From an uncultured Bacteroidales bacterium (GTDB lineage Bacteria > Bacteroidota > Bacteroidia > Bacteroidales > Bacteroidaceae), in the NCBI GenBank assembly GCA_902772585.1, contig CACYBB010000008.1, positions 1 through 64,000 of the forward strand: a stretch of DNA of 64,000 nucleotides, read 5' to 3'. Of this stretch, positions 45,421 to 47,300 are shown piece after piece. Within the stretch, counting starts at the first letter, position 1. Every line of letters begins with the position of its first letter. The position numbers and the translations under genes are program-made. A model generated the notes under the pieces. The model did no database searches. It was not told the origin of the DNA and saw only the letters and a program-made list of their open reading frames with translations.

Positions 45421-46740
45421 CTATTTTTGAAGCAACCGCTTGGCCATCTCATTAAGCGCCACGAAGCGGTAACGCTGCGCTGTCAACGGAATGGGTGTAT
45501 AGGCATAATGCCGTGCCTCAGCCTTGCGGCGCAACGTCTCTTCGACCGCTGCTTGGATGTCTGCATCGAAAAATGTCTGCTCAGTCGGTTCCAATAGCAG
45601 CAACTGTCCTCTCGAACACGCCTCGAAATACACGCCGCCCGGTTTGTAGTAACGTTCGTGCGGCGTTCCCTCTTTAGGGAAACCGTCATTGAGCAACACC
45701 ACCAGCGGATAGCCCTGCTCGCGCAAAGTACGGGCAATGAGTTGCTCACCTTTGCTGATGGCCGCCGTATAGGTGACCGTTCCGTTATGCGCCGCTGCTA
45801 GCACTATCCTCAGCCGTTCCTGCACCTCTTCGTTGGTTGCACTTCGCGACATCTCCACGACCTGCTTATCGGGCCAGTCCAAAAGGAAATGGTTTCCCAT
45901 CGATGTAAATGATAGCCCTGCTGCCTCTGTCCGCCTGTGCAGCCTGAAAAGCTCAGGGTTGTGGTTCTTTATCCATAGCCGCCGTGGGTTGTCCTTTACA
46001 TAGTCAATCATCCGTCGCAACTGCCCAGGCGCATGGAGTATGCGCTCATGATAATAAGCCGCGTCCTGCTCCCAGATACTACCTCTGCGCGCAAAAATGC
46101 GTGCAAAATGCACAGGTGCCTTCCCATCATCATTCCCGTGCACTCCAGTGCCGTCCCTTCCCCCATCTCCGTGCATTCCTGTGTCATTCTCTTCTCCGTT
46201 CCCGTGCATTCCACTGCCGTCCCTTCCTCCATCTCCGTGCACTCCAGCGGCGTCCCTTCCTCCATCTCCGTGCACTCCAGCGGCGTCCCTTCCTCCATCT
46301 CCGTGCACTCCAGCGGCGTTCTCGCCGCTGCCATACATTTCCTTATACACCTTCGTGCACCCACTCTTGAACCCGCGCACCACCGCCCCGATGCTCTGCG
46401 GCAAGGGCTCCAGCACCTGAACTACCAGATGCACGTGGTCGGGCATCACTTTCTGCGCCAGCACCTTCAACGCGAACCCCTTCCCCGCATAAAACTGCGC
46501 CAGCCCGCATAACATCTGATACACACGACGCCCAAAGGGATTGAGCCTCACGAAAGCCGTTTCCGCACGCTCGCCCTCCAGCACTCCAAACAGCGGATAG
46601 CGTTCCTCCACAGGCAACGTAAAATGATAGATAGCACGTCCCTTGTAGTCCCATCCGTTTTCACGGTGGTGCCTCATGGGGTCTGCCGGCTTCCGTTTCC
46701 CCTGTTGGATTGTCGCTGCTACGACATCTTTGTCTTTCAT
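45421..46740 (-). CDS. REP-associated tyrosine (HUH) transposase-like protein with C-terminal Rossmann-like domain and internal minisatellite
   Basis: The 439-residue protein has an N-terminal Y1/HUH domain: PDHVHLVVQ with the metal-binding His pair at 102 and 104, helix VVRGFKSGCTKVYKEMY, and after an insertion GSIWEQDAAYYHERIL (Tyr229/230, candidate nucleophiles) with MIDYVKDNPRRLW, the RAYT-type tail. Residues 142-207 are six 11-residue repeats (AAGVHGDGGRD and variants). Residues about 275-439 form a second domain (AAISKGEQLIARTLREQGYPL, then YYKPGGVYFEACSRGQLLLLEP) that resembles the DprA/SLOG Rossmann fold by pattern only. Function inferred: mobilising or maintaining the palindromic repeats found directly upstream. 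Confidence 0.75.
   Translation of the reverse strand: MKDKDVVAATIQQGKRKPADPMRHHRENGWDYKGRAIYHFTLPVEERYPLFGVLEGERAETAFVRLNPFGRRVYQMLCGLAQFYAGKGFALKVLAQKVMPDHVHLVVQVLEPLPQSIGAVVRGFKSGCTKVYKEMYGSGENAAGVHGDGGRDAAGVHGDGGRDAAGVHGDGGRDGSGMHGNGEENDTGMHGDGGRDGTGVHGNDDGKAPVHFARIFARRGSIWEQDAAYYHERILHAPGQLRRMIDYVKDNPRRLWIKNHNPELFRLHRRTEAAGLSFTSMGNHFLLDWPDKQVVEMSRSATNEEVQERLRIVLAAAHNGTVTYTAAISKGEQLIARTLREQGYPLVVLLNDGFPKEGTPHERYYKPGGVYFEACSRGQLLLLEPTEQTFFDADIQAAVEETLRRKAEARHYAYTPIPLTAQRYRFVALNEMAKRLLQK
46120..46317. repeat. 33-bp minisatellite, six in-frame units
   Basis: Six tandem 33-bp units encode 11 residues each; the first three units from the gene's 5' side encode identical peptides AAGVHGDGGRD and are nearly identical in DNA, the others diverge (GSGMHGNGEEN, DTGMHGDGGRD, GTGVHGNDDGK). 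Copy number probably varies between strains. Confidence 0.9.
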
Positions 46741-46781: not shown

Positions 46782-46830
46782 TTTTTTACACAAAAAACGG
46801 AAGACGTTCCTGATTTGGCTTGACTGTCAT

Positions 46831-46918
46831 TTTTACCCTCACATACTCACATAACAAGCCTCAAACCCTTATACACAGGGCGTTTGAGGGGCGTGAGGGA
46901 GAACGAAAGTCCCTCACG
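46831..46918 (+). repeat. REP-like palindromic unit, left copy
   Basis: CCCTCACATACTCACAT leads into a hairpin CCTCAAAC (46859-46866)/GTTTGAGG (46882-46889) with inner CCCT/AGGG pairs, then a second hairpin CGTGAGGGA (46892-46900)/TCCCTCACG (46910-46918). Confidence 0.75.
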
Positions 46919-47005
46919 TTACCCTCACATTTTGAGTCACATTCACTCACATCACATAGTTACGCTTACCTGACGTGAGTGTTCAAAGAGAAAAAAGTGA
47001 GGGAG

Positions 47006-47095
47006 ACGTGAGGGAGAATAAATATCCCTCACGTGCCCTCAGCCCTTTGTACATCGGTATTTGAGAGGGATCATGTGAATATGTGAGGGACATTT
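47006..47095 (-). repeat. REP-like palindromic unit, right copy in inverted orientation
   Basis: Begins with hairpin ACGTGAGGGA (47006-47015)/TCCCTCACGT (47025-47034), then CCCTCAGCCCTTTGTAC with a TTTGAGAGGG partner, and ends in ATATGTGAGGGAC. Its reverse complement aligns along its whole length with 46831-46918. Confidence 0.75.
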
Positions 47096-47166
47096 TCGAA
47101 TTCCTTGATTTTTTGCGTCAAAGGGTCAACCTACATCACAAATAAAACTGTCTAAGACTTGCGTTC

Positions 47167-47250
47167 AGTCCGACGTATCCAAACTCCCAGTCCGAAGGCT
47201 TCGGACTCATAGTCCGAAAGGAGCGGACTGTTAGTCCGTAGGGACGGACT
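47167..47250. repeat. Four tandem 22-bp units with AGTCCG/CGGACT palindromes
   Basis: AGTCCG occurs at 47167, 47189, 47211 and 47233, exactly 22 bp apart. The last three units each close with CGGACT (ending 47207, 47229, 47250), so each can form a hairpin; the first unit has lost the closing half. Confidence 0.8.
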
Positions 47251-47300
47251 AATCTCTTCTTCTGGAATACAGTTCAATTAATAACCTTGCGTTATCATGC

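Follow-up and report, generated by a model that had tools for sequence, protein, structure and literature searches.

A RAYT-type HUH protein with a predicted DprA-like domain carries a REP-like hairpin, its likely substrate, within its own reading frame

The window analyzed here comprises 64,000 nucleotides of a contig from an uncultured Bacteroidales bacterium (CACYBB010000008.1). A single ORF of the reverse strand encodes a protein that combines an HUH motif, an in-frame repeat and a second domain, as proposed in the initial annotation. The overall interpretation offered there stood in part: the RAYT-like core fold and the DprA-like fold agree with structure predictions; the assignment of the catalytic tyrosine was not borne out. 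The features of the locus are collected in Table 1.

Table 1. Features of the RAYT/DprA-like gene and their positions in the window.
Feature	Position	Strand	Basis
Two-domain RAYT/DprA-like ORF	45421..46740	-	439 aa, ATG start
MPDHVH with HUH pair His102 and His104, codons 99–104	46429..46446	-	both His invariant in 70/70
REP-like hairpin, perfect 8-bp stem and 4-nt loop, within codons 137–144	46311..46330	.	fold, covariation, codon shuffles
Conserved element tail, lying 5' of the hairpin when read on the opposite strand to the gene; other copies have a CCGTGCAYTYC-type tail	46300..46310	+	
33-bp tandem array, six units	46136..46319	-	TRF, 5.6 copies, score 240
Disordered loop, codons 146–204; follows helix 117–136, precedes a core strand and Tyr247	46129..46305	-	pLDDT <50
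YVKDN, codons 247–251, with Tyr247 as likely nucleophile and Asn251 as likely metal ligand	45988..46002	-	invariant in 70/70
C-terminal domain, residues 266–439, predicted DprA/ShosA fold	45424..45945	-	model, fold search; paralogue model
Arg299	45844..45846	-	aligned to Arg of GTRRPT in H. pylori DprA; profile alignment weak, E 1.3–1.5

Existing family profiles match the protein weakly. Pfam Y1_Tnp scored 20.5 bits, below its cut-off of 23, and NCBIfam REP_Tyr_transpos scored 28 bits (21.9–43 bits for four paralogues), under its cut-off of 80. The HUH domain is predicted by the structural model to have the fold of E. coli RAYT, and a database search returned 2176 homologues at E ≤0.001 among 7995 candidates scored. 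The window's genome encodes four divergent paralogues (on contigs C23, C35, C17 and C4), each with the same two-part layout. The best other match within this genome is only 46% identical over 161 residues, so there are no near-identical copies such as those of IS200/IS605. The distribution of the family is patchy, with matches in 15 of the 61 family genomes drawn, several of which hold two to five genes. The 56 loci with named records come from Bacteroidales, many of them of rumen metagenome origin by their titles; six truncated or off-target loci were left out ahead of the ORF list, leaving 50. Comparison with 10 orthologues indicates purifying selection on both domains, with dN/dS values of 0.055–0.085 for the HUH part and 0.042–0.080 for the C-terminal domain, dS being saturated in some pairs. 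The neighbors of the orthologues (L028–L083), named by eye, recur within groups and differ between them, as with HflX and fumarase in one case versus glycerate kinase or thioesterase in another.

The HUH motif that had been annotated in the protein is present and fully conserved. In an alignment of 70 sequences (33 of the 50 loci, the window protein, the four paralogues and 32 listed homologues), His102, His104, Lys125, Tyr247, Asn251, Pro252 and Arg253 are among the positions that never vary. The equivalent of Tyr247 is also invariant in all five sequences of the paralogue comparison, and a pattern combining the HUH pair with Tyr-x3-Asn-Pro occurs in 358 of 360 among the homologues listed. 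The spacing of Tyr247 and Asn251 is the Y-x3-N of the class 2 TnpAY1 motifs (Table 1 of PMC6006769). The catalytic tyrosine is thus likely Tyr247, within YVKDNP, and not Tyr229 or Tyr230, which had been put forward as the RAYT-type tyrosine; both of these residues exist but are unconserved.

The extra domain, initially likened to DprA/SLOG folds, is modeled confidently as a separate unit (residues 261–439, block-mean pLDDT 87–98) and is predicted by structure modeling and fold search to have a DprA/ShosA fold. The top Foldseek match is ShosA (8zva), with an rmsd of 13.7 in the Foldseek superposition and 3.2 over 131 residues in VIA-align, and both domain folds were reproduced in two models, those of the window protein and of a paralogue. 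ShosA belongs to an anti-phage toxin-antitoxin pair. At the sequence level, the domain resembles DprA only weakly (E >1). Pfam DprA gave no match at E ≤10 for either the whole protein or residues 275–439, in searches where the HMMER filters drop most matches above ~0.1, and residues 275–439 alone matched no Pfam family of weight (best E 0.14). The position of Arg299 is at least 90% conserved. The arginine of the H. pylori GTRRPT motif to which it aligns is, in the chain numbering, presumably R52. In DprA, R52 of the Hp protein and R115 of the Sp protein act in ssDNA binding (PMC4066776).

The tandem repeat lies, as annotated, between the HUH half and the Tyr half of the protein, in the disordered loop between His104 and Tyr247, and the array, 5.6 copies by TRF, is translated into six 11-residue units. 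Its copy number does vary: a 97% identical homologue (P0001) has five units, and the 118 of 120 close homologues in which the loop could be delimited show 30 different loop lengths, from 34 to 88 residues. The sequence TGCACGG is kept in all six units of the window gene. The complete hairpin, with both arms, is found in the first copy only, and a later unit tested for folding did no better than its own shuffles.

This hairpin, which forms the start of the array, was missed in the initial annotation. As single-stranded DNA it has a folding energy of −11.4 kcal/mol, and the z-score is −3.95 for one strand and −4.89 for the other. It is conserved at the nucleotide level beyond the needs of the protein. 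The genes (48 window-type and 26 other family members, L152 having yielded no ORF) were compared with 60 codon shuffles that kept the protein. Stems of 7 bp or more were present in the interval between HUH and Tyr in 41 of the 48 window-type genes, versus a shuffled mean of 3.0 and maximum of 6, and in 18 of the 26 others, versus a mean of 2.1 and a maximum of 5. Equally long control stretches after the Tyr motif held 7-bp stems in 4/48 and 4/26 genes, respectively. Seven of the window-type genes and eight of the others have no 7-bp hairpin in the interval. In all 26 orthologues whose protein reads SGENAA at this place, the codons are AGC GGC GAR AAC GCC GCT, with GAG/GAA as the sole variation; elsewhere in the same genes, the frequencies of these codons are 0.40 (AGC), 0.35 (GGC), 0.66 (AAC), 0.25 (GCC) and 0.18 (GCT). 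Alignment A4 comprised 33 and alignment A5 26 of 37 candidate loci.

The two arms of the stem covary. Among 55 distinct copies, to which 66 element copies were reduced, 27 cells had both sides changed versus 7.1 in shuffled data, double changes occurred at five of the eight stem pairs, and pairing reached 94.5% versus 17.0–64.3% for slid partners. Because the element search required a set inner stem and tail, it limits the covariation of the inner pairs; the outer left arm was left free. Further pair types are unexceptional in number (9 vs 7.6; 54 of 500 shuffles reach 9). All six frames of the element can be read without a stop in 30 of the 55 copies, versus 1024 of 2750 shuffles and 135 of 1728 31-mers of the window, a mild effect of which no use was made.

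Three of the four paralogues have different hairpins at the same place. Across the family, hairpin sequences differ between subfamilies and the interval remains the same. For the C4 paralogue, G000 contains GCGGTTCACCCGC ten times in exact form, and nine of these copies lie on the contig of this paralogue: four immediately 5' to the gene, two within it and two immediately 3'. The 5' copies share a AGTGCCCA tag and are spaced by ~40 bp; this array was seen only with a covariation-tolerant pattern. At L158 in genome G051, one 9-bp hairpin recurs in three places: at the gene's 5' edge, within it and on its 3' side. The C4 paralogue and L158 are therefore REPtrons that have their REP in the coding sequence as well. 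Window-type genes, as a rule, have no such REP flanks, and their hairpin is internal. The REPs of C17 and C4 were also considered as dispersed repeats of G000, which was rejected: the C17 pattern matches its own gene only, and the two narrow patterns taken together match their own genes only, bar one match with one mismatch on C18. The class-A REP core, counted on both strands, occurs 20, 13, 9, 10 and 6 times in the five genomes with class-A genes and 7, 0, 0, 0, 0, 0, 1, 0, 5, 0, 1, 0, 3, 3 and 1 times in 15 other genomes (Mann-Whitney p 0.0006), a comparison we take only as supportive because the classes were assigned by eye, the pattern was chosen post hoc after some of the hairpins, and in-gene copies were counted.

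Copies of the window element also occur outside the RAYT ORF, in 10 of the 45 genomes with window-type genes and in nine of them once a match in a native RNase R gene, recognized by eye (L138, G419), is set aside; a reversed-element control gave 0 matches in all 45. The in-gene copies in these genomes are no evidence of association because the genomes were reached via gene-bearing loci. Genome G415 has 11 of its 14 matches outside the RAYT ORF, spread over eight contigs. The copies elsewhere sit between genes or in frame within other genes. In four genomes (G400, G405, G407 and G425) the element lies in frame in an AlkD gene, in a frame different from that of the RAYT gene. Pfam DNA_alkylation matches the G400 copy, and a PDB search with AlkD at 1e-5 gave no match, so the insertion call relies on the flanks common to the four genomes and on the DNA_alkylation match. 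The AlkD element (L029, L067, L134 and L136) occupies one site at differing copy numbers, which suggests a single old insertion followed by copy-number change. A ClpA-like gene contains the element in two genomes, with 25 residues in the one aligned versus three in E. coli ClpA; a UvrA-like gene has an in-frame element of 28 residues versus none in the comparison protein; and in a PcrA-like helicase gene (L130), where the element has the opposite orientation, there are 35 residues versus four. PheT probably contains an in-frame copy, with no clear length gain versus E. coli PheT.

A search of 399 family genomes gave matches at ≤3 mismatches in 10, seven of them within a RAYT ORF, and 389 genomes had no match. 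The matches in G366 and G260, at three mismatches, were taken as chance and set aside, and that in G149 lies in another ORF. Mobility is not visible in the window's own genome because the sole copy of the element there, at ≤3 mismatches, is the one inside this gene. Around the 50 orthologues, no flanking hairpin is common beyond small groups of close relatives, and an element copy lies shortly upstream only of the L044 gene and, in G416, of the L046 gene.

We propose, with a probability of roughly 0.7, that the locus encodes a RAYT-type HUH protein joined to a domain of predicted DprA/ShosA fold, and that the REP-like hairpin opening its in-frame repeat is likely the protein's own substrate, cut and rejoined as single-stranded DNA. 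This reading draws on the architecture, the conserved site, the conservation and covariation of the hairpin, the copies elsewhere and the REPs of the paralogues, as read from the sequences. E. coli TnpAREP nicks and rejoins a REP hairpin in vitro (PMC8266576), and by analogy we infer that the protein described here may do the same with its own hairpin. Nicking and rejoining would take place at a candidate site made up of the HUH pair, Tyr247 and Asn251, and the DprA-like domain may keep the single strand beside it, perhaps via Arg299. The hairpin would be exposed while the gene is single-stranded, for example in the lagging-strand template. Rare transfers would place copies elsewhere, the survivors being those between genes or in frame within tolerant loops; in the disordered loop of the gene itself, insertions would survive because the loop tolerates length, and the tandem repeat could have arisen by slippage on half-elements.

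A broader proposal, to which we give somewhat less than an even chance, is that the proteins constitute a Bacteroidales enzyme family carrying its DNA target in its own coding sequence, where the stem-loop doubles as a disordered protein loop. The DprA-like module would make REP cutting ssDNA-triggered, and enzyme and hairpin would co-evolve, with occasional in-frame seeding into DNA-repair and housekeeping genes.

The hairpin might instead act in the mRNA, with the protein or another factor binding its own transcript and limiting expression, and the copies elsewhere would then be by-products. A location inside an ORF, conservation at the nucleotide level and confinement to this gene in the window genome would all suit such a role, and the covariation is indecisive because DNA and RNA fit it equally. 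The copies elsewhere in nine of 45 genomes, with the PcrA-like one opposite to its host gene, and the REP arrays flanking the C4 paralogue make this unlikely. Still less probable, in our estimate, is a selfish palindromic repeat that invades tolerant loops of many genes independently of the enzyme, this gene being one host: the in-frame copies in AlkD, ClpA-like, UvrA-like, PcrA-like and probably PheT genes are what such a repeat would leave, and intragenic REPs and RPEs are already known (PMC3733652), but a hairpin occupies one interval in 41/48 and 18/26 family genes with subfamily-specific sequences, and the window element is unmatched in 389 of the 399 family genomes.

We consider it very improbable that the DprA-like domain senses a ligand or damage and thereby turns the HUH nuclease to a defense or stress role, with REP handling secondary. 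PADLOC gave no match for any of four queries, and the recurrent neighbors recognized by eye encode housekeeping proteins, HflX and fumarase among them; the pointers towards this role are ShosA as the top Foldseek match and the patchy distribution over 15 of 61 family genomes, several with two to five genes.

REPs inside TnpAREP genes and inside uvrA, uvrD and tRNA-synthetase genes are already known (PMC6006769, PMC3733652). In TnpAREP subclass 2.4, REPs are inserted in the gene with the frame unbroken (Quentin et al. 2018, PMC6006769). The genes described here resemble this subclass in the HUH-Y core, the variable insertion between HUH and Tyr, and the REPs inside and, in some members, beside the gene, and differ in the insertion site (between beta3 and alphaC in subclass 2.4; here beyond the helix next in order to the HUH strand). 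They also differ in motifs and size, with NH[IFV]H, YIxNNP and a median of 194 aa in subclass 2.4 versus DH[VL]H, Y[VLI]xxNP and about 336–488 aa, including the DprA-like domain, here. Subclass 2.6 shares a Bacteroidetes host and has a 21-aa alphaC-beta4 insertion and flanking atypical secondary structures with genomic copies; unlike the present genes, it has NH[LIV]H and a median of 179 aa, and the passages describing it in PMC6006769 mention neither a DprA-like domain nor an in-gene hairpin. The perfect 8-bp stem, short loop and conserved motif 5' of the stem are shared with the Group 3 REPtrons of S. maltophilia (PMC8266576), which have a GTAG tag; the element here has a GTGC-type tag, not the canonical GTAG, and is distinguished by a REP inside the gene and a second enzyme domain. 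DprA (HpDprA 4ljk, SpDprA 3uqz) and ShosA share the predicted fold and, by a weak alignment, the conserved Arg after the first strand, and the present domain is unlike them in lacking a Pfam DprA match, in its low sequence similarity and in its fusion to an HUH domain. No description of a RAYT-DprA fusion was found in the literature searched, as judged by titles or abstract openings.

Rickettsia RPEs and intragenic GTAG/CGTC REPs are palindromes in frame in UvrA, UvrD and tRNA-synthetase genes (PMC3733652). The in-frame palindromes found here lie in similar genes but belong to other repeat families and are tied to a candidate transposase that hosts the repeat. The overlap of the AlkD, ClpA-like, UvrA-like, PcrA-like and probable PheT hosts with the gene classes in that study hints at a recurrent targeting rule. 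With enzyme and candidate target in one reading frame, their pairing is easily proposed and their co-evolution can be read from a single gene, which bears on how REPs spread and on why bacteria retain RAYTs. The DprA-like fusion would provide a concrete link from REP processing to ssDNA handling, and a coding minisatellite may be able to start from a palindromic element.

Upstream of the gene, positions 46805–47262 hold a dispersed element of ~440 bp, in which a pair of inverted ~98-bp arms, both containing a GTGAGGG..CCCTCAC hairpin, is followed by three AGTCCG..CGGACT hairpins. It also occurs on C2, C13, C18, C19, C30, C45 and C48 of G000, the aligned pieces being 82–93% identical, and on C27 (L017) the arms are separated by 1.5 kb, with a VapE-like/DUF3874 ORF of 402 aa between them. 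This arrangement points to a mobile element that encodes a helicase and has given rise to miniature derivatives. The GTGAGGG and AGTCCG hairpins were considered as REPs of the RAYT and rejected, as they belong to this separate element with its VapE-like gene on C27. There are 17 GTGAGGG hairpins in G000 and at most one per genome in the 60 others of the draw; among the 50 orthologues, several (3) GTGAGGG-type words lie upstream only at L042; and 14 AGTCCG hairpins occur in G045, a genome without a family-profile match. AGTCCG hairpins are found in other genera of the family, on several contigs of G051 and on C11, C28 and C45 of G045, where those on C11 form an array with 22-bp spacing.
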